A DNA stretch of 64,000 bases, taken from assembly GCA_003313425.1 (NCBI GenBank), contig NHZP01000030.1, positions 434,001-498,000 of the forward strand, given 5' to 3'. How positions within the stretch are numbered: position 1 is the first letter of the stretch; every line of letters starts with the position of its first letter. The DNA is from Pseudopyrenochaeta lycopersici (taxonomy: Eukaryota > Ascomycota > Dothideomycetes > Pleosporales > Pseudopyrenochaetaceae). The position numbers were made by a program, and so were the translations under genes. Shown here piece after piece: positions 42,114-64,000 of this stretch. A model generated the notes under the pieces. The model was not told the origin of the DNA and made no database searches. It saw only the letters and a program-made list of their open reading frames with translations.

Positions 42114-44426
42114 ATGATAGTAAAACCAGCCTAGCACTTTGACGGCCTATTAGCTATTTCGTACACGGCATATTTATAATTATTAAACGACAGCGATACT
42201 AGCGAGGACTAGTTAGCTGCTATAAGCTTAGGAACTGTTAGCTTTAGGAAGTATTAACGATATAATAAAGAAGTTGACAATCCTAATGCTATTTAGGCAT
42301 AGTTGCTAGCGTTATGCAACATAAGGTTATATAATAACATACTGTACATTACTAACTTTGATAGAATAGTTATGATAGAGTGCATGCTAGAAGCTGGATG
42401 CTATTTACTAGACAATTTAGTCGGCGGACTACTAGGCCTGTATAAGGCTAGCGGAATTAAGAAGGAGGATTTGTGTAAGCGTTAGCTATTAACATTTAAC
42501 TCTAAAGGAAAGGTGTATAAGGCCCGTCGCCTAATAGGGGACCTGTACCTAATAATTAATAAATAAGGTTAAACAGTATTTAGAATAGTAATAATATATA
42601 CCTTACTGTATAGGGCAGGCTATAAGCAGAAGGAATAGGCATAGAGCGCTAGGAATCTTAAGCTTACCTAACAGGACTATTTTTAGTAGTTAGACGACGG
42701 CAAAGGAAGGTGCCTTGTACCTTTGAACATTATCGCGGTACTAGGAGCACCCTAGGACGATAGAGGCATGTTAGACGTCCTAACCCCTTAAGAAGCAGAC
42801 TACCTTGCTATAGATAGCAGACGTGTCTATAAGGACGGCAGCGGCCTACTAATAATTGTGTTAGTGTAATTCGCTACTAAGGATAGTTAATAACTACTAA
42901 ACAGCTCTAAGGAACTGAAGCCGCCCGCAGGTAGAGCTTATAAGCTGGACCTAGGCGACGTTAAGGTAGACTAGCTAAAGGCTAGATAAGCTAAACTATT
43001 TACTTAATTCTTACGTAATATTAAGGCTACGCTCTAAAGCTTGTTCTTTTTGCTAAGTTAGAGGAAAAGTATTAACTATCCTACTATTAGCTCGCTACCC
43101 TCCCTAGTAGCCTAACTAGAGAAGAAGAAGATTGTAATTAAATAAGAATTTAGCACTATTATAACTGCGGCAATAGCTAAGGAGGACGCCTTCTTAGTAA
43201 CATTGTTGGACGATAATAAATAGGACAGCGACAGAGACTAGGCTACAGAAAGTGAGCGGAACGTTGTGCTAGAAGTTAACGAGGAGCTAGCGCTATAATA
43301 GACTAAGCAGGATATAAGGCGATTAGTAAAGCAGATCTAATAGTACAAAGATTAAGGTGCGCATGTTATAGTAACTATAGTATAAGCAAAGGCCTAGGAT
43401 AACTAGGCAGACTTTATAATAGGCACGTTGGTTAAGTAGAAGCTAAGGAAGATAGAAGCGGACGCGAGGGACGCAAACGCGAAGGAGGTTAGCTAACTTA
43501 TTAACTTAGCAGTTAACGACGTTGTTAAGGGGCTAAAGTAATAGTATGTAGCCAAACGCGCAGGCATCTTAAACCTGTATTACTTAATAGAAGACGACGT
43601 GCGCTACTAGGACTAGCACTCTAGCTATAATATGCACCTTACCTTTATTAATAAGTATAAAGGCTGTAAACTTATAGTTAGCTTACTAACAGAAGAGTAG
43701 CTAAAGGATCCTCTGCAGGTAGTTAATGCTAAGGCTACCTTTAAGCTATTAGACGTAGCTAGCTACGACCTTAACAGAGTTTGGAAGGACACAGAGCTAT
43801 ATAAAGTATTTTTATATGCTTATCTACCCTAGTTAACTAAGAGGGACATATTAGGCGACCTGTGTAGGCGCTATAAACTAAGCAACCCTAATGCTATGCG
43901 AGTTAAGGACAACACAGGCGATATTAACTTAGCTAGGTACCTGCAGAAGTAAAGTAAACACCTAGAGACTAGCTTACCTAATCCTTTCTACGCTAAATAA
44001 GAAGTATTAGAGTAAAACTTAACTAAACGTAAGCAGGATAAGATAAAGAAACGTAAGGCCTCGCCTGCAGAATATAAGGCTTAGGATAGTAAAACAGTAA
44101 TGTTGGCGCATAATAGGGTAGTTAAGAAAGTATAGATTACTAAGAAGACGAAGCAAGCCTAGATAGAGTAGGAGGAACTAGTAAGTGCTGCTACTACGAC
44201 AGTTAACTAAAGCGAGGAGGCTCTAACCTAGCGTAAGAGAGGTTGTCTAGTAAAAGGAGAGGGTAAGGCACCTACAGTTAAGCCTATAGCAGCAGCTAGC
44301 AGAGGTAAAAGGCAGTAGAAATAGATAAAGGGAGGCGAATAGGTTAGAGAAGAAATAGCAGCAACAAATTAGAATAGCAAGCAGGAAACGAGTTAAGGTA
44401 AGGATAGAGTATCCGAGGACGGATGA
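42114..44426 (+). pseudogene. Third ORF of the inner Gypsy, about 770 codons, unrecognised, RIP-broken
   Basis: A single frame (positions divisible by 3) runs from an ATG at 42114 to a TGA at 44424-44426, just before the polypurine run and 3' LTR. Inside it the stops I see are only TAA and TAG, at places where Gln or Trp is likely, so it was one intact ORF before RIP. A piece free of stops is 42303-42485. The N-terminal third is hydrophobic-mixed (YLLDNLVGGLLGLYKASGI), the middle is charged, and the last about 200 residues are strongly basic (KRKQDKIKKRKASP, RGKRQQKQ). I find no signal peptide or envelope-like membrane anchor and no known family. Position is that of env or of accessory ORFs in some Gypsy elements. 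Confidence 0.7.
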
Positions 44427-44449
44427 CGGCTTTTAAAAAGAGGGCCAAT

Positions 44450-44613
44450 TGTAACAATATATAAACTATGAATAGGTCACCTAACCTAGCGCCGGGTCAC
44501 CTAACCTGGCCACAGGTTAGGTGACCCAGACTATAAAGAGGTCATAAGGCAGTCAATAGCTGAACAACAATCTTACATACAAAACACCTGACACAACCTG
44601 CGATTGACTAACA
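44450..44613 (+). repeat. 3' LTR of the inner Gypsy (164 bp)
   Basis: Same length and layout as the 5' LTR, preceded by a purine-rich run (TTAAAAAGAGGGCCA). Differences from the 5' copy are C/T or G/A. Confidence 0.92.
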
Positions 44614-47600
44614 AACCTAGTTAGTTTACTAATAGTTTATATACGCGCGTAGGACCTACTCTATTACTAAATTTATAATCTTAGTCTAGCTATTAGTTTT
44701 AGGGTAGTAGCTAGTTAAATAGCGTTAGTTAATTTTTAATTATTTATAGAGTTTATTAAAGAAAGCAGAGACGAACGATCTACTATAGTTAAAGATAATC
44801 GTATTTAGAAGGCTGTAATATACCTACACGTAGTAAATAAACAGCTAGGCGACGTCTAGAGCTTCTATCTTAGCATAAGAGATTAGGTAGCAGTATTTAG
44901 ATAGCTAATTAACTACTACTATAATATTAGTATATCCTTTAGATTTAGGGAGGTTAGTTATAAAGTTAACTAATATATCTTACTATTATCTTTTAGGTAC
45001 TAGTAGAAGCTTAAGTAAGCTGTAATACTTCTTGCGAGAGGCTTTTAATTATTAGTAGGTATAGTAGTAAGTAATATAATAGTAGATTATCTAGAATATA
45101 TTTAGCTAGTAGTATTCTCTTTAGAGGATTTCTAACGTCTTTCCTTATCCTAGGTAGCTGCCTGCAGGGGAGTTATATACTACGCGTAAGAGCTTAATAA
45201 TAAGTTTATCGTGTGTAGGGATTACTAGTCGTCCCTAGTAGTATAAGCGCTAATTTTATTCTTTATATTCTGCGTTAATAATCTCTTAGATAAAGCGTTT
45301 AGTTTCTAATAAGAAAAGATTATAGGCGCTAGAGGGTACCTTAGATATTAGATATTTAAATAGATCTAGTTATAGCAGTATCTGTTTATAAGCATTATAT
45401 GCCTCTTCTTAGGTAGGCTAGTCTTAGGAGTATTATGTTAGTGCGTTAGGTTTTTCTCCTAGCTTACCTAGTTAATACGTAATTATAAAGTTAAAATAGA
45501 ATAAGTACTCTAACTAGCAGGCTTATTAGTAGCTTAGTTATTTTATAGTCGCGAAATACTGTAGGTTCTTATAATTACTTAATATATTAATTAGGAAGTA
45601 GGCTTCCTCTAGTTCTAGTCTCTAGTATTTAAAGTAGCGTACAATTATAAGTAATTCCTTATTATATATCTCGTAATTGCTCTTAGTAGGGTTTATTCTC
45701 TTTAAGTAATACGTAATAGGCTAGAGGACTTCTCCCTTATCCTTCTAGGATAGGACTCCTACTGTTACGTAGTCTAAAGCGTTAGCCTTAATAACTATAG
45801 GCAGATTAAGGTTAAAGTAACAGAGAATTAGAGCAGTTATAAAGGCTTATTTTAAATTATTAAATACTTTATAGTAAGCGTTAGTAAAAGAGAACTTAGT
45901 ATCCTTCTTTATTAGGTATACTAGAGGTATAACTATATATAAGAAGTTAGCGAACCCTAGGAAAGCGCGTACGTCTTTTACGTTCCTTAGGTATTCCTAG
46001 TCTTAGATAGCTTAAACTTTTCTAAGGTCTATCTTTACTCTACTTATAGTAATTATATAGCCTAGGTATATAACTTTAGATTAGTAGAACTCGCACTTAT
46101 TAACGTTAAGTTATAATCTAGCTTCTTATAAGGCTTTAAAGACAGATTAGACATATTCTTAGTACTCCTATAAGTTCTTACTATAGATTAAGATATTATT
46201 AAGGTAAGTAGTATAGAAAATATCTAAGTATAGACGTAGGATGTTGTTTACAAAGTATTAGAACGTACTTAGCGCGTTAGCTAAGCTAAAGAGTATAATA
46301 AGGTACTTAAATATACTATATCTTATATAGAAGGTAGTTAGCTATTTATCTCCTTTGATAATATAGAGGCAGTTAAAGGCAGTAATAATATTAAGCTTTA
46401 TATAGTACTTAGCTTTACTAAGTTAGTTTAGGGTTTCCTAGATTAGTAGTATTAGGTATTAGTTCTTAATAGTAATAGTATTAAGGCCTTAGTAGTCTAT
46501 ATAGAATTAAAGGCCTCCTCTTAGTTTCTTAATAAAGATAATAGGTAAGGCGACAGGGGATAAGCTAGCTTAGATAAAGCCTTTTAAGAAGTTATCTTTA
46601 AGGTATTTACGTAATATAAGTAGCTTATTCTAGGATATGCTATATAGTAGCCTAAAGTTAGGTTATTTACCTTCCTTAAGGTTAATCTTATAATTATATA
46701 GCTATCTTTTAGGTAGCTAATCTAACTCTTATTATAAAAAGACTATAAGTAGATTATAATATTTAGTAAGTACCTTAGTAGCTAGGTTAGTATAGGTCTT
46801 AGGAGTAAGGGCTTTATTAATATTAGTAATTAATACTATAAATATTTTATAGTCTTACTTCTTAGCTAGGCGAATAAGTAGTTTAGCTCTAATATAGTAT
46901 ATATCTAGGTTAGGTTAAGATAAGAGGTTAGGTTCTTCTTCTCTATTAGGTCTTAAAGTAGGAGTCTCTAAGGACTCTTCTATAGGTTCTTTTAGTTAGT
47001 AATTTATCTTAAGTAACTAGTAGTTATGTTAGTATTAGATAGTTAGGTTTAAGTAAGTAGGCCTAGAGTAACTAGTATAGACTAGTATACTAGCTAAGGC
47101 TTTAGTCTTTAGTAGGTTTATATTATAGTTCTTACGTAGGCAGCGTTTAGTGTACTGTTAAGCGTTAAACTTTAGCTATTTATACTTATAATCTACGCTA
47201 ATCTTATACTTATATATCTAAAGTTAGCTAAGAATTATATTATAATAGCCTATGTTTATAACGTATAGGTGTAAGTTCTCTATATAGTTTCTATAGCGAA
47301 GAGTTAGGTTAATAGTGTAAGAGACTTCTCTACTATTAAGTATAGTTCTAGTAAATCTAGTTAAGTATATAACGTAAGGTAGCAGTATTTAATTTAGTTT
47401 TAGGTTACGCGCGAGATCTCTATAGATATAACTAATACTAGTTACTTTAGTATTAATAAGGGCTTTTAGGTTACTCTTTATAAGGCCTTATTAGATTAAG
47501 TAAGGTATAGTTATACTATATTTCTATAAGTCTTAATAGAGCGTAGCCTAGAGTTTAATAGAGATTTAGTAAGTATATAGTCTTAGGGAGTAACTTATCT

Positions 47601-48637
47601 TTAGGACGAGGCTTTTCCCTTATAAGAGTAGGAATAAGCTACTTTACGTCTGTAAGATTGTCTTAAGCTACTAGTTAAGGTTAAGGATTTATAACTCTAA
47701 GGGCTTTTTAGTAACTATAGATAATAACTATTTATACGTAGTTTAGGTAGAGGAATAGAGTAGTAATAGGAGATATAATCTTTAGAGTTATATTTAAAAC
47801 AGCGTCTTTCCTTAATTTGTTTTTAACGCTCTATAGAACTAACAGGTGCGTAGTTAGTAACGTTAATCTCTATTTCTGTTAGATACTAGTATTATTTAGA
47901 TTAAGATAGCAGGTAACGCAAATTATTATTATATAACGCGATTAGGTTTATATAATTATTTAGGAACTAAGAGATTAGTACGCTAACTATAACTCTTCTT
48001 AAATTATTAGAGAGAGAGAGCGGCAGAGTTAGTTAATCTAGGCTCCTTTATTTAAGTTAGTATTAGCTACTAGCCTTCTAAAATCTGTAAAGTAAGATAA
48101 GAAGTTCTTCTTTCTCTATTTTAAGTTATCTAATTAGCTCTACGCAGTAAGTTCTTAGTTTAGATCTCTATAAGTAGCGTTAAAGAATCTAATAAGTTAA
48201 TCTATAGTTATAATATCTTTATCTATAAGAGAGTCTACTAGTATAGTAAAGTTACGCTTAAGATAAGAGTGTTTTATAGATTAGGCAGGCTTCTTTATTT
48301 ATAAATTAATTAGCGTTTCTTTTTAACTTATTTTATAGTTTTATTAGGAAGAGTAAGAGGTCCTTCTTCCTTCTACTAAACATAGGTAAGTTAGGGAGTT
48401 ATTCTAATTTTAGCCTAATTATAGAGGGTTTAGAAAGAGAAGTTTAGGTTATAGGTAGAGTAAGAGTTATAGGAGAGGATCTATTGCTAGATAATATCTC
48501 TTTATTACTTAGTTAGCTCTTAGCTTTAGTTATTATAATAGCTAAAGTAGTAGTAGACTTTATTTTAATTACCTTAAGTTCTTAGCGTAGAGTTACTATC
48601 TCTTTATAATAGCAGGCTTCCTGCTTAGATAGGGAGG

Positions 48638-48857
48638 TGTTAGGGACTGTTGGTAGAGGTCGAGGTTAAGTGATATGGGATAGTATTAAGACTAATCCTT
48701 AACCTCTGCTCAGAGGGGGTAGCTCTCGTTTATATACTAGCCCGTCTCTAGTGTAGTCCCGAGCCTTTCCGGGCTCTATCCGGTATGGGTCCGAGGGCCC
48801 TCCGCTAGGTCGTCCCCCGCTAGGTCGTCCCCCGCTAGGTCTGGTGTGTTCGTGACA
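48638..48857. repeat. Solo LTR, 220 bp, not RIPped
   Basis: Starts TGTTAGGGACTGTTGG, ends GTGTTCGTGACA and is flanked by GGAGG (48633-48637 and 48858-48862). It holds three tandem CCGCTAGGTCGTCCC-type units near its end. Its C and G richness contrasts with the RIPped gag around it, so it inserted and recombined after RIP of its host. Strand cannot be told. Confidence 0.9.
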
Positions 48858-48987
48858 GGAGGCCTGTAAGGCTTTATTTCTAGCTTTTAATACTTTACTA
48901 CTAACCCTTAGTTTCTGTAGCTGTTACAAGATAAGCTAAAATAGGTCTATATTTTCTTAAGAGGCTATAGTAAATAACGCAACGTAA

Positions 48988-49209
48988 TATTATAAGAGGC
49001 TATAAGTAGGGATTTTAACGCTTAACTAATAGCTTAATTATTATACTACGTATAATCTTAGGTGTAATATAAGATGTTGCGTAAAGAAGAGAAGAGAACA
49101 GAAACTTAGGTGCAGAAGAATACTTAGGGGCTAGGCCTGTGCTCGAGCTCAGGCCTCAACAGGGCTAGCCAATTCAGGTGTTGCGGGAACCACGGTGGTT
49201 ACCGTGACA
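48988..49209 (-). repeat. 5' LTR (element orientation) of the outer Gypsy, 222 bp
   Basis: The left two thirds are RIPped (TATTATA in place of TGTCACG), but from about 49135 on the sequence is unmutated and ends GGTTACCGTGACA. The transition inside the LTR is abrupt. Confidence 0.92.
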
Positions 49210-49214
49210 AGCTT

Positions 49215-49637
49215 TAAAAATTAATACTTATACTTTAGTAAGTAAGTTAAGTATTACTAGTAGAATATTATTATTATAAGTATATTTAAAAGTAAAAGAG
49301 CTTAATATATTTTAGTAATATAGCTATTATATAGTTAAATAATAAATAGCTTTTTATATAAGTACTATAATCTTTAGAGTTATAAAGATATACTTTAGTT
49401 TAATATATAAAACATATAAGTAGCTTAAATTATTTATATTATAATAGATAAAAATAGAAAAGCTATAATAGTAGTACTGTAGTAATACTTAGTAAAATAC
49501 TATACTATCTAAGGCTGTATACAATTCTTTATTACTAGAAATAATTATTATATCTCTTTTTAACGCTACCTATTTTAGACGTTTATAGTAAGGTCTATGC
49601 TGGAGGGGGTTAGCCGCCCTCCCTACTAGCGTGATTG
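49215..49637. other. Right part of the unidentified older repeat interrupted by the outer Gypsy
   Basis: RIPped DNA ending at a GC-richer tip (CTGGAGGGGGTTAGCCGCCCTCCCTACTAGCG). The last ~115 bp recur inverted at 56155-56265. Confidence 0.5.
49520..49637 (+). repeat. Left member of an inverted repeat pair flanking the NLR island
   Basis: About 110 bp matching the reverse complement of 56155-56265 with few C/T and G/A differences. The GC-rich tips (GCCGCCCTCCCTACTAGCG) face the gene island. Confidence 0.8.
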
Positions 49638-50160
49638 AGGTGTTTATGCACCTCGCTAGTAACTGAAAGATAGCAAGTCTTTAAGCTTATCGTTCTAACG
49701 CTATCATTTTGCCACATACAGAAGCTCCTAGAAGCTTGGTTCTGCGCAGTCGTAAACTAATTACCCCACTATAAACAATCAGGCATTACTCGTATTCTAG
49801 CTTTCTACGGGCGCGAGTCCCTTCGCTTGTGTGGGTTTGGTTAACCTAACAGCGAACACTGATACACATTTATTAAAAAAAATTTGGCACTCACTTTGTA
49901 ATGTATTTATATGCCCTGGACTGTCCTGTCCGTGTGCAGCATTAAATACAGTGAGTTATGGACTAGTTAGTTAGCGGCTTGTCCACATGACTGTAGATGG
50001 TGTCCGGGTTTACACTTGTTCGCCGACATCGAGATAGCGGGCCACACGATCATTGCAATTTTACAAGCAATACGTACATTTTAGGTCTTCGATGTTTATA
50101 TTAATTTGATATCATTAACACTCTACTTCCGCTTCATCGATCCACTCTATCACTATAGCT
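49638..50160. other. 3' flank of the hydrolase effector gene, no gene seen
   Basis: Normal base composition begins abruptly at about 49640. No ORF, RNA gene or repeat was recognised. It should include the 3' UTR of the minus-strand effector. Confidence 0.6.
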
Positions 50161-51305
50161 CTAATTCATCAGACCATAATTAATGGTCTGAGAGTCGATT
50201 CTCATGTCACCTTGAGCAAGATTCGTAATCTGGCCATGGTTGTTGATGGTATAAGTGTTGCCTCCCTGTTCCTATGTTACTGGGTCGTGTTTCTTAACTG
50301 TATCTTGTTTGAACAGTCCTTACCTCAGTCGCTTCGGTGATACCCGTCGCTTCCATAGCTTGCTTGACTTTTGCTCTCACTTGCTTATATCCATCATCTT
50401 CTGGGTCATCGAACTTACAGATGTCCAGGTGATTCGCTTGCATAGGCAAGATCTCCCCAACTCCGGGGTAGGATGCATCTTCCTCTTTGACCACCCACTG
50501 GCCATCTCCGTTAGTTACCCTGGATTAGTTGAGGCTTACAAATCAAAACATACCACTTTGTAGGTCATCTTCTTCTCAAAGAAGAAAACAACCGCGATCT
50601 TGGCCGAAGTCTGATTACGCTTGCGGATGATTTCTGGAAACCTGAGACGAAGATCTTTGAGCTCTTCTGAATCTAGTTTGAGATTCTTCAACGTCTTCTG
50701 GTCGGTCCTCTGAACGAGGCTGTAGACTCGCCTGACGACCTCCCCCCACCCAGCTATCTTGGAGCCGTAGAATGGCGTGCCAAGGAATATCATTCCTTTG
50801 ATCTTTTGCGCGATTGAATTGATGCTGTCTCCCTCCGCTGCTCCATCGCCGCCATAAACAACCTGAGCAAGAACGAGACCGCCGAGGCTATGACCTACTA
50901 CAATGATCGGTAGATCAGTCTATAGGAAAAATAGTTAATCTCAACCGCAGTCGCGAGTGGCCCGTAATACCCTACAGTGTTTGTCTGTTTGCGCTCATCT
51001 TCAAGGAGGCTGCAGAGCCGTCGTGCATCGTCTGCAAGGCTGCCTTGAGTAACCTCCGCGGTATCAGAATGCACAACCCCGGAGTCATAGCCGTAGCTCA
51101 GTATGCGACTCTTGGGGACGTCTTTCGACAGCAGTTCTTTCGGCCAAATCACTCCATCTTTAGTCCAAGTCGATTCCCTGCCTCCCCGAAGACCGTGGAC
51201 AAAGATGATGCTATTGGAGTCAGCCTGAGAGGGCAGTATGTGTTTACTCTCGCAACACTTACTCCACTTCTGCCTTATCTCCATCATACCACTTGACCAA
51301 ACCAT
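50161..51305 (-). CDS. Alpha/beta-hydrolase (SesB-like) effector with C-terminal amyloid-type signalling motif, 326 aa
   Basis: Four exons: 51305-50976, 50919-50554, 50497-50324, 50271-50161; introns (56, 56, 52 nt) are GT-AG and all phase 0 (donors GTAGGG, GTATGT, GTAAGG). IIFVHGLRGG (33-42) is the oxyanion region, GHSLGG (119-124) the nucleophile elbow with Ser121, and ANHLDICKF gives the likely catalytic His255: a lipase/esterase-like fold of the DUF676/SesB kind. The last exon adds 36 residues rich in Asn, Gln and Gly, with GQITNLAQGDMRI (303-315), resembling the N-terminus of the divergent NACHT-WD40 neighbour. Such motifs at effector C-termini pass a prion-like fold from NLR to effector; the hydrolase would then act as a cell-death executor, probably on lipids. 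The first ATG is uncertain: residues 1-25 fit the family poorly and an upstream exon may be missing. Confidence 0.8.
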
Positions 51306-51869
51306 ATCGTGCCATAGCTAGTTCTTGGTGTAAGGTAAGTCGTTCATTCTGGCATAGTCGAGGCCATTTACTTTGTACTGTACTACACAGGCAATTGTGC
51401 AGAAGGCCCCAGCTGCAAATATTGATTATAGATAAATCCCCGTGGCACCCGCCACTCCACTATCGACTTCTCAGAAATTCGTGGCTTACAGACCATCCCG
51501 AAGGCAATCGACTAACGTTAAAACACGTATGAGCTGAATTCAGCCGTTCAACGTCTTTATCCGCTTTTGGTTTAGCCTTGTTTGGAAAAGTTCTGGCCCA
51601 ACCCCGCGCTGGCGCTTCTGCAGTTCCCAAATCAACAAAGTAGGGTGGTGCAAACGGGCCTTGGTGGGGGCCGCTCAGCTCCGCATCGCATCGCATCGCA
51701 TCCATTCACCACTCCGCGCCGCGTCGGTCGTCTCCCACGCCAGCCAGCGGAGAAATCGCGGCTTAGATCGAGTAGGATCGAATCAATCAATTAATCCATT
51801 CACCGCAACAGCGAGAAAAGGACTATCATCAAACTCGCGTTACGGTCTCTGCGAGGGAAGCAGCCAACA
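51306..51869. promoter_or_regulatory. Divergent promoter region between effector and NLR
   Basis: 564 bp separate the two start codons. It is GC-normal and free of repeats except a CGCAT tandem tract (51682-51702, four units). The NLR start lies in CAACAATGCC, a strong fungal context. Sharing one upstream region would allow co-expression of both partners; no TATA box can be assigned safely. Confidence 0.5.
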
Positions 51870-54800
51870 ATGCCTGATGTTGATTATCGGGGTCATGTCG
51901 TTAACAAAGCCGAAAGGGACATTAATATCGGTACGTCACACACACCAAGCAGGCTATATGCCCCTAACCTAAGGCTAGGAGTGCAGCACATCCACCACGA
52001 CGAAAAGTCTGATACCTTGCTGAGGCTGGATGCCGCTCCTCAAGCAGCCTTTAATGCCCGTGGAAAAGACGATGACCCTCAATGCCACCCCAACACTCGA
52101 GTTCAAGTCCTCCAGCAGATACGAATGTGGGCGGATGGAGATGACGGGCGATACATCTTTTGGCTGAGCGGATGGGCAGGTACAGGGAAGTCGACCATAG
52201 CCCGCACAGTCGCCCACGAGTACTTCGATAAAGGATGCGTTATGGCCAGCTTTTTCTTCTCAAGAGGTGGCGGAGATGTGAGCCATGCAGAGAAGTTTGT
52301 TGGCACTATTGCTTCACAGCTGGCACAAAGATGCGACGCCTTCAAATCGTTGCTTGCCAAGGCCATATCAAACGACGACGGCATTACCAGCAGGACCCTA
52401 AATGAGCAATGGAGCGGGCTCGTTCTGCAGCCACTATCTAGGTTGCAAGCTGGTTCGTTACGGGAACCTCTACTCATCGTGATCGATGCGCTGGATGAGT
52501 GCAAGGAGAGCGATGTGAGCCAGGTACTTCATATATTGACCGAACTCCAACGTTTGAGGAGTTTCCATTGCCGGGTGTTCATTACAAGCAGGCCTGATGT
52601 ACCTGTCCAACATGGTTTCCGTGGCGTCCCCGGCCAGGATCATCTGGATTTCGTACTTCACGACATTTCAAAATCCATTGTTGATGACGATATTTCCACA
52701 TATCTACGGTACACCCTTTCTGATATTCGGTTCAAATACACTCTTGGTGAGAGGTGGCCAGGAAAAGAAGCCATTAAGGACCTAGTTCGAAAGAGCGCGG
52801 GTTTATTCATTTGGGCATCTACTGCGTGTCGGTTCATTGATGATGGCGGTGTATTGTTTGGCCCAGATCGGTTGTCAGATATCCTTGATGGCGACAGCTC
52901 TGATACTGATCCCGAGGAGAAGCTGAACGACATCTACACTAAAGTCCTGGAGTACTCTATTGGCGCCCGTCTAAAGCAGTGTGAGAAAGACAAGTTTTGT
53001 ACGATGCTACGGGAAGCTCTTGGGGCCCTCGTTATACTCTTTTCACTTCTTCCTGCTTTCTCTCTTGCCCAGCTGCTACATATACCCGAGTGGAAAGTTG
53101 GCGCAATGCTAAGTGGTCTCCATTCCATTCTGCGTATTCCACGGGATTCAAGCCAACCTATTACACTCCATCACCCTTCCCTCCGGGACTTCCTCCTTGA
53201 TTCGCAGCGGTGTAGGGACGTACGCTTTTGGATCAATGAGAAGAAGGCACATGAAGCGCTGGCAAACCAGTGCATGCAACTGATGTCCGAGAAGCTCGAA
53301 AGGGATATCTGTGGCCTAGGAGATCCTGGCGCTACAGTAGCACAAGTCCCACCCGACAATCTCAGGCGTTGCCTTCCAGCAGAGCTTCAGTATGCTTGCA
53401 GGTACTGGGCGGTCCATATCCAACACGGCGAATATCAGCTCCGTGACGATGGTAGAGTGCATTGCTTCTTGCGGGACCATCTACTGCACTGGGCCGAGGC
53501 TCTCAGCTGGATTGAACAGAGTTCAGAAGGGATTCGTGCTACAACATTACTACAATCTATGGTCAACGTAAGTTATGTTCTTAATCCAATGAAACATGCA
53601 ACTGCTCAGAAAATCTTTAGTCTAAGGATAATCCCAATCTGTATGCGTTCCTCCATGATGCTAAGCGATTCCTCCTCTATAACCGATCAATTATTGAGGA
53701 AGCACCCCTCCAAACGTATTACTGTGCGCTTGCATTCGCACCACAGAAGAGCTTAGTCCGCAAACAGTTTGAGGGACAGATGCTCAATTGGATAAAGAAA
53801 TCTCCGCCAATAGTAGAGGAATGGAGCTCGCTGGTGCAGACGCTTGAAGGCCATACCAACGATGTCTTGGCCGTCGCCTTCTCACCTGATGGCAAACTGA
53901 TCGCATCAGCCTCAGACGATAAGACAGTACGGATCTGGGATGCTACGACAGGCGCCGCTCTACAGACGCTCGAGGGCCATACTGACTGGGTTAATGACAT
54001 CGCCTTCTCGCTGGATAGTAAGCTAGTCGCATCAGCCTCGCGCGACAAGACAGTGCGGATCTGGGACACTACGACAGGCGCCACTCTACAGATGCTCGAG
54101 GGCCATACTGACTGGGTTAAGGCTATCGCCTTGTCGCCGGATAGTAAGCTAGTCGCATCAGCCTCAGACGATAAGACAGTGCGGATCTGGGACACTATGA
54201 CAGGCGCCACCCTACAGACGTTCGAGGGCCATAATAACTGCGTCAAGGCCATTGCCTTCTCGCCAAATAGTAGTAAGCTGGTCGCATCGGCCTCATATGA
54301 CGAGATAGTGCGGATCTGGGATGCTGCGACAGGCGCCACTCTACAGACGCTCGAGGGCCATACTGACTGGGTTAATGTCATCGCCTTCTTGCCAAATAGT
54401 AAGTTGATCGCATCAGCCTCAGACGATAAGACAGTGCGAATCTGGGACACTACGACAGGCGCCACTCTACAGACGCTCGAGGGCCATACTAACGGGGTTA
54501 ATGACATCGCCTTCTCGCTGGATAGTAAGCTAGTCGCATCGGCCTCGAGCGATAAGACAGTGCGGATCTGGGACACTACGACAGGCGCCACTCTACAGAC
54601 GCTTAAGGGCCATACTTACGGGGTCGATATCATCGCTTTCTCGCCAAATAGTAAGCTAGTCGCATCGGCCTCTTCGAGCGATAAGACAGTATGGATCTGG
54701 GATGCTGCGACAGGCGCCGCTCTACAGACGCTCGAGGGCCATACTAGCTGGGTTAATGACATCGCCTTCTCGCTGGATAGTAAGCTAGTCGCATCGGCCT

Positions 54801-55891
54801 CGAGCGATAAGACAGTGCGGATCTGGGACACTACGACAGGCGCCACTCTACAGACGCTCGAGGGCCATACTGACGAGGTTAATGCTATCGCCTTCTCGCT
54901 GGATAGTAAGTTGATCGCATCGGCCTCGGGCGATATGACAGTACAGATCTGGGATGCTGCGACAGGCGCCACTCTACAGACGCTCGAGGGCCATACTGAC
55001 GAGATCAGAAACATTACCTTCTCGCCAAATAGTAAGCTAGCCGCGTCAACCTCACGCGACAAGACAGTGCGGATCTGGGACACTACGACAGGCGCCACTC
55101 TACAGACGCTTAAGGGCCATACTTACGGGCTTGATGCCATCGCTTTCTCGCCAAATAGTAAGCTAGTCGCATTAGCCTCAGACGATGAAACAGTGCGGAT
55201 CTGGGACACTATAACAGGCGCCACTCTACAGACGCTTAAGGGCCATACTGGCTGGGTTAATGACATCGCCTTCTCGCTGGATAGTAAGCTAGTCGCATCG
55301 GCCTCGAGCGATAAGACAGTACGGATCTGGGACACTATAACAGGCGCCACTCTACAGACGCTTAAGGGTCATACTAGCTGGGTTAATGACATCGCCTTCT
55401 CGCTAGATAGTAAGTTGATCGCATCGGCCTCGGGCGATATGACAGTACAGATCTGGGATGCCGCGACAGGCGCTACCCTACAGACGCTTAAGGGCCATAC
55501 TAATGAGATTAATGACATCGCCTTCTCGCTGGATAGTAAGCTAGTCGCATCGGCCTCATGCGACGAGACAGTGCGGATCTGGGACGCTGTGACAGGCGCC
55601 GCTCTGCACACCTTTAAGAATTGCTTTACTTTCACCTTGGCCTTTTCTAAGGATAGCCTATACCTTTCCACTGACGAAGGCTCACTTATAATTGATAGTA
55701 GACTACGGGCTGCGAAACCGTACTATAGCAGAGGGCTTTTTATTAAGGACAATTGGATTGCCTTTGGAAACACAAAGCTGCTTTGGCTCCCTCTTGAGTA
55801 TCGGCCTTCTTATTCAGCATTTCAGGATAATCTCGTTATACTTTGTCTTATTTCTGGTATAGTAAAAGTTATAGAATTTAATATTCGCTGA
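51870..55891 (+). CDS. NACHT-WD40 STAND receptor (HET-E/NWD2 type NLR) with N-terminal amyloid-type motif, 1322 aa
   Basis: Exons 51870-53567 and 53621-55891; the 53-nt intron begins GTAAGT and ends TTTAG (an acceptor 6 nt further, CTAAG, would also keep the frame). Residues 1-25 carry GHVVNKAERDINI (8-20), matching the effector's C-terminus. NACHT domain: P-loop GWAGTGKST (101-109), Walker B LLIVIDALDEC (201-211), sensor FITSRPD (237-243). Residues about 640-1230 form 14 WD40 repeats of 42-43 residues that differ at few positions; a diverged non-repeat tail of about 95 residues follows (residues 1228-1322). No frame break. Expected role: cytosolic sensor; ligand binding to the WD propeller oligomerises NACHT and lets the N-terminal motif template the effector. 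Close relatives act in heterokaryon incompatibility; the ligand here is unknown. Confidence 0.92.
53834..55603 (+). repeat. Tandem array of 14 near-identical WD40-coding units (126 bp)
   Basis: Units run LQTLEGHT...WDTTTGAT. Units 4 and 7 have one extra codon. Differences cluster at unit positions 9-13 (DWVND, NGVND, YGVDI, SWVND, DEVNA, NEIND), 28-30 (RDK, SDK, GDM, CDE) and 37-39. Many are transitions, for example CTCGAG to CTTAAG, which changes Glu to Lys. Confidence 0.95.
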
Positions 55892-55958: not shown

Positions 55959-56154
55959 AATAATATGCTATATTATTATCTCTCTTTTATAGAGAGGTCT
56001 AGGGTAATATATAATCTAGTAATTTGCTACTACGTTAGACGAAGCTTCTATAATCTTCTAAACTAATATTAAGATAGCTAGTAACAGAACTACTTATAAG
56101 CATAAAGATTTGCTATGCTTAGATCTTAAGAGACGATAGACGAACATGTTAATT

Positions 56155-56265
56155 ACGCTAGTAGGGAGGGCGGCTAACCTCCTCTAGCACAGACCTTACT
56201 ATAAACGTCTAAAATTAGTAGTATTAAAAAGAGATATAATAATTATTTCTGGTAATAAAGTGTCA
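56155..56265 (-). repeat. Right member of the inverted repeat pair flanking the NLR island
   Basis: Reverse complement of 49520-49637. Its homology stops at about 56263, where a different sequence starting TGTCAGGGAC begins, perhaps an LTR inserted in it. Confidence 0.8.
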
Positions 56266-56914
56266 GGGACTATATTAGGTTTACTAGCATAGGAAAGTTA
56301 GTTAGGTAGTAAAGCGTGTATTATAGTAGTGCGATAGATAAATTACTGCTAAGCAGTAATAGAGTTCTACCTTCTTATATACTCTTACTAATTCTACCCT
56401 AGTATAGGCTACTATAAGCTAAGTTAGCCTAGGCTAACTTATAGAGCTAATAATATCCCTCTTCTTAAAGCTAATTATCTTAAGTAGTAACTATAACTTT
56501 ACCTAGGCCTAAGTAGTTCTACTTTAATATTTTTAGCGTAAGTTAAGCTAAGAAGCGTATATAAATAATAGTTATAAGCTAATATAGCTTATAAAGGAAA
56601 GTTTTAATAGTATAAAGGCTCTTTAGAAGTTATCTATACTAAATATATAGAGCACTTTTACTAGTAAAAGTAACCTTTCTCTCTCTTACTTTTACTTTCT
56701 TTTAGCCTACTATAATCTTAAGTAAGTAGTAGCTAATAAGTCTATATAATAAGGCTTCTCTAGAGTTTTTTCTCTATTCTTCTTATGCTTTACTTCTACT
56801 TTTTTAGTAAGTTTTAAAAAAAATTAAAAAGTCTAATAATATCTTTAGAAAGAAGAAAAGTAAGCTATTTTAGGCTATAATAGAGTAGAATAAAGTAAAA
56901 TAGAGCTAACTAGA
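56266..56914. other. RIPped repeat DNA, unidentified
   Basis: No protein recognised. Contains a perfect 22-bp palindrome at 56420-56441 (TAAGTTAGCCT/AGGCTAACTTA). Confidence 0.5.
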
Positions 56915-57407
56915 GTATAAGAAACTACTATTGTAGAGTTATTAAGGTAGTTCGGCATAATCCCGCAGTTCTAGTGTTGTAAATAAGAGGTAACGCTAGA
57001 ATTAAATGTGTGTAAATAACAGGAGCAGCCCTGCCTGTGCAGTCTACTAGAAACGAAGGTAAGTATAGAGCCTAATTAAAAGTAATAAAAAAAATAGTCT
57101 AAAATCTTTTTAAATTAATATAGCTAATATACTAGCTACTTTATAAAATCTTAGTTTTAAAGTAAATTATTATAGTATATAGTATATAATATTAAGATCT
57201 CTTACATCTCTAAGTCTTATTACTAAATTTTACTAATAAAGGAAACTTATTATTACTTAATTACTTAAGTACTCTATATTATAGTATAAACCTCCTCTAC
57301 TTTAAGCTTAGTCTTATTAAGCTTATAAATCTTACTTATAATCTCCTCTTTTTATAAGTAGAACTACTATTAGGAGGAGAAGAGAGCTAAGGAATAATAT
57401 AAAAGGA

Positions 57408-57451
<44 letters not shown>

Positions 57452-58410
57452 AATTATTACCTTATAAATAAAGAGAAGGTAGTATAAGCTATATTTTTAT
57501 AAGAAGAGTAGTCTTTATAATTATATAAGTTCTTTTATAAACTTCTACACTTTATTATTAAATCTCTTAAAGATAGTAAGAAAAATAAAGAAAAACGCGC
57601 CGTAACCTTACTATTAAAGACGCTAGTAAGTATACTATTATCTAAGTATCCTTTAAATAATCTTTAAAGTACTTAGCTAATTAGAGTCTGTTAAGCCTTA
57701 CTTAGTAACTACTAATTAGCTAAGCTCTTAATAACTTTATAGTTAAATTATCTTTACTTTTTCTTCTTAATTTCTTTAATCCTCTTACTATAATAAGAAG
57801 TCTATAATAGTATATATAGATTTAACACGCCTATATTAGGTTACTCTTACCTAAAATAAGAAGATATAAGAAGAGGTCTTATAAGTAACTAACTAGGTAA
57901 ATATTAACTTAGCGCCTTTTACTATAATAATAACTTTTATAAACTAGTATAAGTTAAAGTTTATAAAAACTTAGTTACGCTTTAGATTAATAGGCGCTTT
58001 AATTTCTTTTTCATATTTAGTATCTTAGCAGCCTTACTATTAAGATTATTAAAAAGCTCTTTAAGAACTTTATCTAAAGTAGTACTTTATTTAACTTTCT
58101 TATTATACTTCTACTACTTAGCTTCTTAAGCTAGATTTATACTTTTATTTAAAAAGAATAACTTATTAGGTACGCTAAAGTCTTTATCTTCTCTAAAAGT
58201 AAGCTTTTTATAATACTAGTAGATAACTTAATACTCTTTAATTACTTTTACTATAGCTTTTTTAGTATCTTTAATAAATTAATAGATTAAACTAAGACTA
58301 AGCAAATTTATAAATAAGTTAGTTAGTTCTTCTAAGACTAGTAGAGAGTCTTATCTTAGCTAATAGTTTATAGCTTTAGTAATATTTAATAACTATACTA
58401 GTATAATATT
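56915..58410 (-). repeat. Right arm of the ~1.5-kb inverted repeat
   Basis: Corresponds to 7175-8680 on the opposite strand and is more heavily RIPped, including the GAAA tract at 57406-57453. Homology ends near 58404-58410. Confidence 0.75.
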
Positions 58411-58461
58411 GTGCCGTTGCACAGGGTACCTAGGCAATCAGGTGATAATAGGTTTCCTTTG
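58411..58461 (+). repeat. 51-bp unmutated fragment equal to 8309-8360
   Basis: GTGCCGTTGCACAGGGTACC... matches the segment after the purine run in the left inverted-repeat arm, but in direct orientation and with its CpA and CpG kept. It is cut by the LTR of the next Gypsy. Confidence 0.7.
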
Positions 58462-58819
58462 TGTTACGAACAGAAAGTAGGAAGGCAGCGGTTATAAGGA
58501 TAAGGGAGGAGGCACAGACGACCAGCAAAGAGGCCGAGTCTCTAAACTAACTAATAACGCCAGGATTATGTAATCCTAGGAAACCTACGCTAAGACAGAC
58601 TATATCCTATAGGACAGAGACAAACCTAAAAATCCTAGGGGGAGCCTTATAAGAATCCTATAAGACAATTATATATATAGACTTGCATAATGTAGCCCTA
58701 TAGCACATTATAATTAACTTAAGATAATCTACAAGTATACTACTACCTAATACTTCTACCTTTAACCTACCTAGCTCTGCACATCTACAGAATACTCTAA
58801 AGATACTAACTAGTTAACA
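58462..58819 (+). repeat. Probable 5' LTR of the right-hand Gypsy
   Basis: TGTTACGAAC at the start and AGTTAACA at the end form a short inverted tip. The 3' LTR is outside the window, so the end is inferred. Confidence 0.55.
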
Positions 58820-59439
58820 CTAGTTGCTTTATATTATAACTACTTAACTAGATCTTTAATATTTTAATTACTCTTAAGATAAGCAGCCCTAGTAAATACG
58901 TAGCTACCCTTAACTCTTTAACTATATCTACTAAGGGTCGCCTAATTAGTAAACCTACTACGTTTAGTAGTAACTAATAACACCTTAAAGGATAGTTACT
59001 CTAACTTAACCTCTACTTTTACCTCTATAAAGATATTAATAAAAGTAATAAGGCACCTATTATAATAACTTACCTTATAGGTAAAGTACTAGAATAGGTT
59101 ATACTATAATTAGAATAGTATATAGACTAGGGAATTATTAATATAGAGAATACAGAAATATTTAAAGATTAAGATAAGTTTAAAAAATATATCTAACAAA
59201 TCTTTAGAATGCAGACTAAGAAAATTACAGCAGAACAATACATATAAGAACTAAAGCAACATACCTCTATTACTAACTACGCTAATAAGTTTAAATAATA
59301 CTCTATAATTATTAGATAGGATAATAAAGCTCTTAAAAGGATATTTAGACAGAGCCTAAAACTATAAGTTAGGGAAGAGCTTATAAGAATAGGATGCGTT
59401 ATTATAAACCTTAATAACTTAATTAATGTAGAGGAAAAA

Positions 59440-59832
59440 AGGGAGAGCTTGGCAACAGTTACCCAGGTGATCTATGAGATGGACCACTGTTTTGTCTAGG
59501 AGGCTTTGAGAGCCAGCTATATAAAGGAGAGCTGAGCACGGCCTATTACAGGGGCCATTATACGGTAGGAGCGTGAGCAGCGTGTACGCTTGCGCGTGCG
59601 CGCACGTGATCGCGCACGTGATCGCGCACGTGAGTCTACCTTCAGGTGTCTCCTGCGTGAGCTTGCACGTGAGCGCGCACGTGAGCTTACACGTGAGCGC
59701 GCACGTGAGCGCGTACGTGAGCGCGCCCTTGAATGCACACAAAAGACGTGTCTCTCCAGGGTAAGCTCCTACGTCAGCGCGCACGTGAGCCTACCGTACC
59801 CCAGGTCACAGCGCGTTGTTTGCAACAATTAA
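59440..59832. repeat. GC-rich, non-RIPped insert with a CACGTG-rich tandem repeat
   Basis: Within RIPped gag about 390 bp have normal to high GC. The core (59590-59735, again 59775-59792) is a degenerate 12-bp tandem repeat (about CGCGCACGTGAG) with about eight CACGTG sites. Flanks show a loosely repeated segment (GTTACCCAGGTGA at 59459, CGTACCCCAGGTCA at 59795). No coding is supported; ORFs in all frames are repeat artefacts. Borders are approximate. Confidence 0.75.
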
Positions 59833-62207
59833 TAACTATATTAGGATTAATAATAACCTATATAAGCTAAACTAAGAACTACAAAGCTATATAAAAGGAA
59901 GAATAAACTATATAGGTAAATAAAAAGGCTATATTTGTTACCCTAGAAACACCTATACTACTAGCTACTATACTTCTAATAAACTAGAACTAATATATCT
60001 AGATAACATTAATAAGAAGTAAGAGAATAGAAAGGTAGGAAACTAGAAAACAGATGCAGAGAAGTTAAAAGGGAATTACTATAATTATAAGAAGAAAAGA
60101 TACTTTATAAAGAATTATAGATAAAAGAATAAAGTTACTTAACTTAAAGTTAATATAATTAAAAACTTTAATAATACCTAATTTAGGGACTAGTAGGTAG
60201 TTACTATACCTAACTATAGCACTAGACCCTTATTACTACTATAGTAGGATAATAACTAGATTATAGAAACTTATAGACAAGTTACCTTAAATACTTAAGA
60301 GACTAACTAAAATAATAAGGCTCTAGTAGAACTATATCTAAGGAACCTAGTTAACTAGAACTAACTACTACTTATAGAAAGTATTAAGGAAGTATAAGTA
60401 CTAGATATTAAAATATAGAGAATATAGGGTATACTAGCACTATAGAAAATATATAGTAGAAAATATATATATATGTAATGCTAGGACTAAAAAATAAAGT
60501 GTAAACCCTTAAACTAGAATAATATATATTAAGAATACGTAATAGAGAATATTAAGTATATTAAATTCTCTACAGAATAAGCTAAGCAACAAATTAAACA
60601 AAATACTCTTACTTAGGCAGAAAAAGGATTAAAGCTTTTCTAGTATAACTACGACTAAAGAAACCTAAAATATAGACTACTATTATACTTCTATTACATA
60701 TATAACTACTATAACTACTACTACGCTATTAAGCTATAAGAAGGACACTTCCTAATACTAAAGAGAGTATGTAAATAGTAATAGTACAACTGCTAATAGG
60801 ATAATTGCATTAACTACTTATAGGATAAATAAATAATAAATTATTTCCTAAGATATAATAATAAGTATACTGTAAACTAAAACATTATTATAAATAAGTA
60901 ATATACTAATAAATTATAGCAGACTTATATAAATTTAGGATGTGAGCGCTATAAACTAGAAAAAGAAGTAAATAGTTTTAAAGAAAATTCTTTTTTAGAT
61001 AGAAACTAAAAACTAAACCTTCTTATAGTAAGAAGGCTAGAACTAGATAAGGGATTTATCTATAACTAGATAGCACTAAGAAATAATATTAAGCTATCTA
61101 ATAAAAGGAAGAGAGTCTCTTCTAACTTAGAATAAGACTCTAAGGAAAGGAGCTAAAGGCACTAATAGATTCTAGATTATAAGTAAACTATATCTCTAAG
61201 ATAGCTATATTAAAAGTAGTGCTATAACCTATCTTAAAGAAAATACCTTACTAGATAATAGTAGTAAATAGAAAATTAGGAGGGATAATAACTTATAAAG
61301 TTACTACTAGCCTTAGCCTAGCCTCTAAAATATACTAGGTTAGACTAGACATCTTTAGGACAGCTACCTATAATATTATACTATAACTACCTTAGTTAAG
61401 ATACTATAACCTAGTAATTAACTAGATAAAATAGAGAGTGTCTATACGTATAAAAAATAACGCAGGAATACCTACGTAACAGTTATATACCTTAGTAGAT
61501 AAGAAGATAATAATAAATATTAAACCTTCGCAAACAGCTAAAAAATAGCTACTTTATTAGTAGCTAGTAAAGAACACTAAGAAGAATAAAGAGTTAGTTA
61601 CTACTCCTAGGATCTTAGAAGAATATAAGGAATTTAGAGATATATTTACTAAGAAGGTAAGAAGAGAAGTACTACTAAAATACTAAGAATAAGACTATAA
61701 GATAGAACTTATAGAAGGTAAGCAGCCTAGGTTTATACTAATATACTACCTAAGTAATTACGAGCTAGGCGTCCTAAAGAAGTATATTAATAAAAATTTA
61801 GTAAAGGGTTTTATTAGGAAATCTAAGTCCTTAGTAGGATATCCTATTATATTTACGCTAAAGAAAGATAGAGTATTAAGATTATATATTAACTATAGGA
61901 AGTTAAATAATATTACTAAGAAAAACTGCTACCTGCTACCTAATATATAAGAACTACGTAATAGATTAATAAGAGCTTAATACTTTACTGCGCTAGACCT
62001 AAGAGGAGCGTATAACCTTATTAAAATAAAGGAAAGAGAGGAATAGAAAACTACCTTTAAGGCATAATATAGATATTATAAATACATAGTAATGCCCTTT
62101 AGCCTAACGAACGCACTAGCAACGTATTAAGATTTAATTAATAACGTCTTAGTAGAATATCTTAATATATATGCTATAGCCTACCTAGACAATATTTTAG
62201 TATACTT

Positions 62208-62300
62208 AAGGAACATAGATAAATATTAGGACTATATTAAGGAACATAGATAAATATTAGGACTATATTAAGGAACATAGATAAATATTAGGACTATATT
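62208..62300 (+). repeat. 31-bp unit repeated three times within RT
   Basis: AAGGAACATAGATAAATATT... occurs as three exact copies directly after the YLDNILVY box. Two extra copies add 62 bp, which breaks the frame. Confidence 0.95.
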
Positions 62301-64000
62301 AAGGAAGTACTATAATAATTAAGGGACTACCACCTAGAGCTAAATCTAGAAAAGTACAAATTTTATAAAAAAGAGGTAGAATTCTTAAAATATATAGTTA
62401 GAAGATAAGGAGTATAGATTAGCGAATCTAAAATTAGGATAATCTAAGAATAGAAGATACTATAAATAGTTAAGGATATTTAGTTATTCTTAAGATTTAT
62501 TAACTTTAACTAATAGTTTATTAAGGACTTCTCTAAGATTGCAGCACCTTTAACGAAACTAATAAAAAAAGAAGAAAAATATGACTAGAATAAGGAACAG
62601 TAATAAGCCTTTAAAGAGCTAAAAGAAGCATGCATAGCAAAACTAGTATTTATATTATTTACTAGTAGATAACTACTAAGGATTAAAACAGATGCATTAG
62701 GTCTTGTAATTAGAGTAGTAGCCCTATAAAAAAAAGACAGAAGATAGCACCTTATAGTATATTACTCTTAAAAGTTCTTATAAGTAGAGGAGTAATATAA
62801 TATCTACAATAAAGAACTTATAGCTATTATTAACGTACTATAATACTAGAGAGTATATATAGAAAGTTGCTTAGAACTTACTATATATACAGACTACTAA
62901 AACCTAATATACTTTATAATAATAAAATAACTTAATTAGAGATAAGTAAGATAGTTAGAACTTTTAGGATAATATAAATTTAAGATTATATACACACTAA
63001 GGAAAGAAAATAGGAGAGCAGATGCACTAAGTAGAAGATATAATATAGTAGGAAAGAAAACTAAAGTTTATATAGCGATCTTAAAAATAAACGAAGATAG
63101 AACTCTAGGACCCTCGCAAGAATACTACGTAATCTTAAAAATATAAGTAAAAGTCCCTAAGGACCTACATAAGATTATTATCTAACAACACTATAATAAT
63201 CTAATATATAGACACCTAGGAATTATAAGAACTATAGAACTAATCTAATAAAACTACTATATTAAGAATCTAAGATAGAAAGTAGAGACATATATTAAGA
63301 AGTGTGTACCCTGCTAACAGAATAAACCTGCTACATACGCACTTTATAGTAAATCGCAGGTAATAAAAGTACCTATAAAACTATAGAAAGATATAGTAAT
63401 AGACTTTATTATAGACTTACCTAAGTCTGTAGATAAAGTAACTAGATATAAGTATAACGCGATATATAACGTAGTATATAGATATATTAATTACGCAGAA
63501 TTTATACTATTTAGAAAGAATTTTATAGCACTATAACGCGCAGAAATAATAAAAGACTAAATATTCTAATACTATAGTATACTAAAAACTATTATTAGCA
63601 ATAGAGATAAGTTATTTACATCTAATTTCTAGTTAACCTTTATAGCTAAGATAGGTACCTAAAGGAAACTATCTACAGTATACTACCTAGAAACTAATAG
63701 ATAAACAGAATAAATAAATAGAACCCTAAAATAATACCTACGAGCGTATTATAATAGATAACAGAATAACTAGGTATTACTATTACTAACAGCATAAATT
63801 ATATTTAATAACAGTAAATCTAAAGTAATAGGTAAAATACTGTTCTACGCCTATTACGGGAAACACCTAAACCTATTTAAAAGAAACTTTCTAAATATTA
63901 AAGTAAAAGCTACAGTTAAAATAGTAAGAGAACTACAGGCAACGCTAAAATAATTATAAGAAAGACTTAAGAAAAGACAAGGATAATAAATTTTATATAT

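Follow-up and report, generated by a model that had tools for sequence, protein, structure and literature searches.

Few families of fungal amyloid-signalling motifs have been described together with their effector partners: HRAM, sigma, PP, PUASM 1-2, and GDQN (PMC9815663, PMC12261475). The combination of an NLR with a hydrolase has precedents among them (PMC3321046, PMC5485727). In the sigma module of Nectria haematococca (SesA/SesB/HET-eN), a SesB-type hydrolase carries the motif at its C-terminus and the adjoining NLR carries it at its N-terminus. Sigma is characterized by three repeats with the submotifs A (GxGxQFNxx) and B (GGTQNINT), and SesB-type effectors are its classic carriers; there, the motif had gone unseen because an intron near the 5' end of the NLR gene was overlooked (PMC3321046). 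In the PP module (HELLP/SBP/PNT1), the putative lipase SBP is controlled by an NLR, and the two share a motif of approximately 20 residues (PMC5485727). The published HRAM pattern (PMC4518210) has N at position 3, Gly19, R/K at position 15, and hydrophobic residues at 5, 8, 10 (T possible), 16, and 18, and HeLo-type effectors carry two copies of it. In PUASM, the residue before the D is side-specific, with GND on effectors and ARD on NLRs (PMC9815663). GDQN, reported from Fusarium oxysporum in 2025, is a motif pair with an N...G...GD...Q layout, the pattern NxxxGxQYxxxGxGDQNxVSxxxxQxN, and a SesA effector (PMC12261475).

Here, we analysed a window of 64,000 nucleotides, and all coordinates are positions in this whole window. 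Two of its genes probably form an NLR/effector module of the fungal amyloid-controlled type, with a motif distinct from HRAM, sigma, PP, PUASM, and GDQN.

Gene models of the NLR/hydrolase pair

The hydrolase gene (minus strand) and the NLR gene (plus strand) are divergent, and a common intergenic region of 554 bp (51316..51869) separates their start codons at 51315(-) and 51870(+). The gene models rest on homology and splice signals, and the introns are predicted. The SesB-like hydrolase gene has five exons on the minus strand and encodes 312 aa. Exon 1 (51263..51315) reads MARYGL..., and the homologues P0001 and P0002 are collinear with it from the start. It is followed by a GT-AG intron of 52 nt in phase 2 (51262-51211) and by exon 2 (50976..51210). 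Exon 3 (50554..50919) encodes the GHSLGG nucleophile Ser107 and exon 4 (50324..50497) encodes His241, both invariant in 40 aligned homologues. The last exon (50161..50271) encodes the C-terminal tail with the motif and the stop codon, and similar tails occur in proteins of other fungi. Over its full length, including the last exon, the corrected hydrolase aligns with P0001 and P0002, with 276 and 279 identical residues of 312 columns, respectively. The initial annotation had given the gene four exons with all introns in phase 0, which is wrong because it overlooked exon 1 and intron 1 is in phase 2. Its coordinates, including the last exon at 50271-50161, both segments, and the five identities in 13 positions are as first described.

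In the domain scan, DUF676 was above the cut-off on the four-exon version of the hydrolase. A phmmer search of P0001 against the PDB returned no match. The predicted model of P0001 has an alpha/beta hydrolase body, with which its fold matches agree, and a disordered-looking tail, with pLDDT <50 in 37 of the last 40 residues. The alpha/beta hydrolase fold with the GHSLGG Ser and the His, as expected of SesB-like effectors, is present here.

The NLR gene begins with exon 1 (51870..51930, plus strand), which lies inside the open frame 51795-53756 and contains the start codon and the first part of the motif. The probable intron that follows (51931-51978, 48 nt, GT-AG, reading GT...CTAAC...TAG) keeps the frame and contains no stop codon. 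Exon 2 (51979..53567) encodes a NACHT ATPase (match at 52158-52616; PF24883 E 1.8e-30, PF05729 E 7.9e-08). Exon 3 (53621..55891) encodes WD40 repeats and ends with the stop codon. The WD40 array (53901..55605, plus strand) has a 126-nt period, 13.5 copies, and 83% matches; its internal identity is high, and variation is confined mostly to a few positions. The order of NACHT ATPase and WD40 repeats is that of a NACHT-WD40 NLR. Gene models and domains bear out the divergent NLR/hydrolase pair of SesB-type layout that had been proposed for this locus.

A conserved motif in the hydrolase tail

The effector-side motif TYTINNHGQITNLAQGDMRIDSQTINY (50176..50256, minus strand) scored 58.4 bits with an effector-tail profile built without the window. 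Across the family, the motif comprises approximately 25 residues and can be written I-N-x-x-[G/D]-x-[VIA]-x-N-x-A-x-x-D-[IM]-x-I-x-x-Q-[TN]. A similar C-terminal motif is found in 45 of 115 hydrolase homologues from five Pezizomycotina classes (profile m0, at least 13 bits); seven of these 45 were seeds of m0, and a few copies are partial, such as that of P0059. Among the 59 first-listed homologues, 41 carry the motif, and the strict pattern fits 34 of the 115 effector tails. Hydrolase identity of the motif-bearing homologues ranges from 91% down to the 30s. The N, I, and Q columns are near-invariant (40, 39, and 39 of 41 rows, the rows being selected by score), and in alignment A1, for which 19 copies from effectors and 4 from NLRs were selected, I and Q do not vary at all. 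The common motif is real and predates this locus.

The motif at the NLR N-terminus

The NLR-side motif RGHVVNKAERDINIG/VQHIH (51888..51995, plus strand) is split by the 48-nt GT-AG intron, which, judged from the sequence, probably sits inside it. Splicing this intron adds the conserved Q and extends the effector/NLR match from 13 to 22-24 columns. The window NLR, with this probable intron, and the sigma NLR are alike in that an intron in the 5' part conceals the motif.

The two segments were put through a shuffled comparison, named at the outset as a possible refutation. With the NLR spliced, the observed local score was reached by 24 of 20,000 shuffles when the NLR segment was shuffled, by 29 when the effector segment was, and by 14 when both were; with the NLR unspliced, the counts were 415, 327, and 303, respectively. 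Given these counts, the resemblance of the two segments alone is only suggestive; it becomes clear with the family profile. A profile of 41 distinct effector tails from other species was run on 122 N-termini, from 120 homologues and from the window NLR in two versions, and placed the spliced window NLR at the top, with 15.1 bits spliced and 13.1 bits unspliced. The best of 12,200 shuffles scored 8.5 bits and the best of 1,756 internal pieces scored 5.1 bits. The window effector was absent from this profile, yet it was one of the eight seeds of the first profile that selected the tails.

Three close NLR homologues also exceeded every shuffle with the 41-tail profile and carry the motif at the same N-terminal end. 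P0118, P0117, and P0122 (7.6, 4.5, and 2.5 bits) and the unrelated-looking match P0223 (6.0 bits) fell inside the shuffle range. With a fixed-register matrix, the score of the window NLR was reached by 1 of 20,000 permutations, and those of the three homologues by 0 of 20,000 each. A relaxed pattern, defined after the NLR copies were seen, matched 4 of 121 N-termini compared with 12 of 60,500 shuffles and none in 109,388 internal residues. The strict pattern fits the window NLR itself and none of the 120 NLR homologues, where the copies fit the relaxed pattern only. The family profile and the permutations support the first claim that receptor N-terminus and effector C-terminus carry matching motifs, and the recurrence of the motif in effector tails and NLR N-termini places it at the same ends in homologues.

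Such an NLR/hydrolase pair probably exists outside this locus too, since the contigs of hydrolase P0017 and NLR P0117 are of equal size (4,677,656). This was the one candidate pair from same-contig matching of 36 of the 115 effectors with the 120 listed NLRs. The covariation check, made on one pair only, saw none: among 29 effector rows, the window's own ranked eighth as a match to its NLR. A composite query for more NLR partners yielded 389 candidates, none at E <= 10. When each segment was used as a protein query in the own genome, only these two genes were returned, a single first-look candidate each, and no paralogous pairs were found. Across 38 loci and the window, nothing outside this pair of genes exceeded 7.5 bits.

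Alternative explanations and comparison with described families

Adjacency of the two genes and a homologous short motif at the NLR N-terminus and the effector C-terminus, the marks of an amyloid module, are both present here. The common segment could also be no signalling amyloid at all and serve either in homotypic peptide interaction of an ordinary kind or as a regulatory tail that is conserved. Position, composition, and pairing are what suggest amyloid, and the conserved D and I-x-I-x-x-Q could serve as an interaction motif. This alternative is unlikely given the resemblance to described amyloid modules, which extends to the placing at the N-terminus of the NLR and the C-terminus of the effector, the adjacency, the low-confidence tail, the short length, and the Asn/Gln/Gly-rich hydrophobic alternation.

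We then consider the described families. The 23 motif copies tested had no match in Pfam or NCBIfam, including PF17106 at E <= 1, PF17046, and the HET-s profile; of nine homologues scanned whole, P0025 alone showed a partial sigma match. Against PDB sequences, the motif profile returned three matches, all at chance level (best E 0.75).

That the segments are a diverged sigma motif in an ordinary SesA/SesB/STAND locus is rather improbable, even with an effector of the classic sigma-carrying type (PMC3321046). The tails of P0019 and P0020 look intermediate, with GGTQTI and SGTQNIT where GDMRI stands. The window's tail contains neither the GxGxQF nor the GGTQN core; among the 115 tails, the A core GxGxQF is found in P0025 only and the B core GGTQN in none, and PF17106 matched 0 of the 23 copies. 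In P0025, from Fusarium oxysporum, a weak motif copy (residues 286-307) overlaps a stretch that partially matches sigma (303-326). The match begins only at position 19 of the sigma profile, and the weak copy occupies the place of sigma's first part. This overlap can be read either way and leaves the sigma reading more open. The initial annotation had offered sigma, a diverged form, or a new family; the new family is favoured because the window tail lacks the sigma submotif cores and 0 of 23 copies have a Pfam match.

It is also distinctly improbable that the motif belongs, as a remote member in single copy, to the HET-s-related (HRAM) superfamily, which includes HET-S/NWD2 and relatives. The motif is about as long as HRAM, and a single-copy HRAM-type motif on an enzyme effector, PNP_UDP, is known (PMC9815663). 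In a best-case ungapped mapping of 35 of the 41 rows (those with no gaps in mapped columns), N stands at position 3 in 28 of 35, and hydrophobic residues stand at 8, 16, and 18 in 35, 34, and 35 rows and at 5 in 21. The spacing is thus partly common, but the position rules of HRAM do not hold: Gly19 is present in only 12 of 35 rows, position 15 has no R/K (D in 23 of 35), and position 10 is N in 34 of 35. Moreover, the effector is a hydrolase with a single copy, and the HET-s profile matched none of the 23 copies.

The other three families share features with the window. The PP module likewise combines a putative lipase effector and an NLR with a common short motif; its NxGxQxGxN core is found in 0 of 115 tails, and PF17046 in 0 of 23 copies. 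PUASM also has a NACHT-WD40 partner, and its side-specific residue has a parallel here, the D being preceded by G in 17 of 29 effector rows and by R in 3 of 4 NLR rows; FxGxGxQxxGxGxF is found in 0 of 115 tails, and the effector is PNP_UDP there and a hydrolase here. GDQN, a recently found pair, resembles the window motif in its N...G...GD...Q layout and differs in its effector (SesA versus hydrolase); its core NxxxGxQYxxxGxGDQN is found in 0 of 115 tails. Sequence comparison favours a family apart from HRAM, sigma, PP, PUASM, and GDQN, one that may sit unnamed in a supplement (perhaps NLR34 of PMC9815663).

That two Asn-rich ends resemble each other by chance is hardly credible: the pair alone is only moderately unusual and other effectors match the window NLR better than its own does, but the family profile ranks the window NLR first, above shuffle and internal controls, and the three homologues and the relaxed pattern likewise stand out from permutations and shuffles.

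Proposed mechanism and implications

The similar motif copies on the two proteins suggest that the receptor activates the enzyme through prion-like folding that is passed on by templating; here we infer the amyloid fold, the templating, the activation, the lipid substrate, and cell death. The NACHT-WD40 receptor would sense a non-self or modified-self ligand via its repeats and oligomerise. Clustering would bring the N-terminal motifs of approximately 25 residues together, and they could adopt a cross-beta (beta-arch) fold. The matching C-terminal tail of the SesB-like hydrolase, otherwise disordered, would be templated into this same fold. The templated alpha/beta hydrolase would become active, probably on lipids, leading to cell damage or death.

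If this holds, the motif would be a further sequence solution to cross-beta templating, and its presence in SesB-like hydrolases of several ascomycete classes would provide a set of testable receptor/effector pairs. The probable intron inside the NLR motif may be one reason that such motifs escape protein-only scans. Retention of the 48-nt intron would keep the conserved Gln apart from the first stretch of the receptor motif, and therefore splicing could decide receptor signalling. As a tentative extension, which we regard as possible and no better than that, an old and widespread fungal amyloid motif family may control the SesB-like hydrolase clade throughout Pezizomycotina, overlooked because its receptor copy is split by an intron, with splicing setting the signalling. 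The motif may resemble bacterial BASS2 sequences; if so, this would be a second fungal-bacterial amyloid link, beside PP/RHIM/BASS3.

An Rfam scan of the window found no match. In favour of the module, both reading frames are intact, lack a RIP signature, and lie within RIP-like DNA. As a separate idea, the pair may be the cargo of a mobile element.

A divergent hydrolase-receptor gene pair

The minus-strand gene encodes a SesB-like alpha/beta hydrolase of 312 aa and the plus-strand gene a NACHT-WD40 receptor (NLR) of 1306 aa, with 554 bp between their start codons. The exons given for the hydrolase in the initial annotation were retained, and the set was completed with an upstream exon 1 that it lacked (51315-51263, minus strand), recognized by collinearity with homologues. 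It is followed by a phase 2 intron (51262-51211, minus strand). Homologues from Lentithecium fluviatile and Coniosporium tulheliwenetii align with the 312-aa protein end to end, including the last exon (50271-50161, minus strand), and are identical at 276/312 and 279/312 columns, respectively. DUF676 scored above the Pfam cut-off in the four-exon version, and Ser107 (GHSLGG) and His241 are invariant among 40 aligned homologues. The AlphaFold2 model of the Lentithecium protein (mean pLDDT 77 over the whole protein) contains a hydrolase body in which confidence drops at 63-74, 149-153, and 167-178, and 37 positions of its tail among residues 271-310 have pLDDT below 50. Carboxylesterases, lipases, and thioesterases predominate among the 50 best Foldseek matches (TM-scores 0.38-0.52 by query length). 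The window hydrolase shares 81-91% identity with the homologues P0001, P0002, and P0006, which come from fungi of two classes, Dothideomycetes (Lentithecium and Coniosporium) and Lecanoromycetes (Letrouitia); such identity seems high for an immune-type gene.

Motif on the effector tail

Hydrolase homologues (n = 115) were drawn from a database of 5.8 billion proteins. With a first profile built from eight seed copies, including that of the window, a recognizable C-terminal motif copy (at least 13 bits) was found in 45/115, 41 copies being distinct; seven of the 45 carriers are therefore seeds, and a few copies (P0038 and P0059) are partial. The strict motif pattern matched 34/115 tails. Among the 59 first-listed homologues, 41 are carriers, distributed over hydrolase identities of 70-100% (14/17), 50-70% (4/7), 40-50% (21/31), and 30-40% (2/4). 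Some non-carriers, such as P0009 and P0013, look truncated or mis-spliced, and others (P0019, P0020, P0058) have a degenerate or different tail. Near-invariant residues over the 41 rows are N (40/41), I (39/41), and Q (39/41). The named carriers belong to Dothideomycetes, Eurotiomycetes, Sordariomycetes, Lecanoromycetes (Letrouitia), and Leotiomycetes, the last through Cadophora (P0036) at only 13.2 bits; motif copies on NLRs add a sixth class, Geoglossomycetes (Trichoglossum).

Motif on the receptor N-terminus

A profile of 41 effector tails, window excluded, was used to score the N-terminal 60 residues of the best 120 of 396 NLR homologues and of the window NLR in spliced and unspliced form. 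The spliced form ranked top at 15.1 bits, followed by P0121 (13.2), the unspliced version (13.1), P0116 (11.6), and P0119 (11.4). The highest control scores were 8.5 in 12,200 shuffles and 5.1 in 1,756 internal windows, so the NLRs from P0118 downward (P0118, 7.6; P0223, 6.0; P0117, 4.5; P0122, 2.5) lie inside the shuffle range. With a fixed-register matrix of the 28/41 effector rows without indels, the score of the window NLR was reached by 1/20,000 permutations and those of P0116, P0119, and P0121 by 0/20,000 each. The window NLR matches the strict motif pattern, as do 0/120 NLR homologues; a relaxed pattern, loosened after the fact, matched 4/121 N-termini. Compared alone, the two segments of the window are only moderately unusual in their similarity.

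A probable 48-nt intron (51931-51978, plus strand), with GT, CTAAC, and TAG signals, splits the NLR motif; once it is removed, the conserved Gln falls into register and the profile score rises. An insertion at this position, visible in homologues only where its reading frame is open, is present in P0117, P0118, and P0122 and absent in P0116, P0119, and P0121, that of P0117 resembling the translated window intron. Since the 48-nt stretch is in frame and free of stops, retention would yield a receptor with an interrupted motif, and could turn the receptor motif off.

Relation to known amyloid motifs

No Pfam or NCBIfam model matched any of 23 motif copies at E ≤ 1, and the pattern cores of PP, sigma B, PUASM, and GDQN occurred in 0/115 tails. 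When the position rules published for HRAM (PMC4518210) were mapped in the most favourable register onto the 35/41 rows gap-free in the mapped columns, the motif agreed at positions 3, 8, 16, and 18, half agreed at 5 (21/35), and failed at 10, 15, and 19. A fungal survey took in DUF676, PGAP1, and Abhydrolase_6 effectors, and the effector-partnered motifs that its main text names are HRAM, sigma, PP, and PNP_UDP-linked motifs (PMC9815663). On these grounds, and measured against the motifs named in the main text of that survey, we would assign the motif to a new family within a known module type.

The sigma A core was present only in P0025 (Fusarium oxysporum) among the 115 tails. PF17106 matches its residues 303-326 from profile position 19 onward, and a weak motif copy (9.2 bits, below the cut-off) spans residues 286-307, with five residues common to both. 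The tail may be either a tandem of two motifs or a motif replacing the first part of sigma, and P0025 is possibly a dual-input effector or an intermediate between motif and sigma.

Pairing and the WD40 array

The window effector ranked 8 of 29 as a match for the window NLR; thus, within-cluster similarity of the kind reported for sigma and HRAM loci was not seen in this pair. A composite-query search for further NLR partners returned none at E ≤ 10, and a genome search with the window NLR N-terminus found no NLR besides the window's own. One further pair, P0017/P0117, is suspected because the contigs of the two proteins are equally long; this comparison covered 36/115 effectors against the listed NLRs. 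The genome (62.7 Mb) holds at least 86 NACHT matches, a large NLR repertoire.

Besides NPHP3_N (E 1.8e-30) and NACHT (E 7.9e-08), the NLR carries a WD40 array (53901-55605, plus strand) with a 126-nt period, 13.5 copies, and 83% matches. Its repeats are near-identical with few variable positions, resembling HET-D/HET-E repeats of high internal conservation. Nine positions have more than two residue types in the 11/13 repeats of 42 residues. Seven high-dN/dS positions have been described in HET-D/HET-E-type repeats (PMC12222747); by eye, at an offset picked by us, 7/9 variable positions lie within one residue of these and 2/9 do not. The array may mediate non-self recognition.

Genomic surroundings

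The pair is flanked by a 118-nt inverted repeat of 90% identity (49527-49644 and 56143-56260). The left arm has 14 genome matches beyond itself, the right arm included, and the others comprise two inverted pairs enclosing other DNA (L043 and L044), with arms of 437 columns at 88% at one place and at least 696 columns at 95%, up to the stretch ends, at the other. Pfam searches of five frames within L043 gave no match above the cut-off. The inverted repeat and the related arms elsewhere suggest that the pair may sit in a repeat-bounded, possibly mobile unit. The pair is free of a RIP signature (TpA/ApT 0.68-1.06, GC 0.485-0.521), and the DNA on either side (44000-49691 and 56143-64000) is strongly RIP-like in the stretches measured (TpA/ApT 1.68-2.09, GC 0.241-0.331). 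By eye, the sequence at 44-48 kb resembles degraded transposon DNA.
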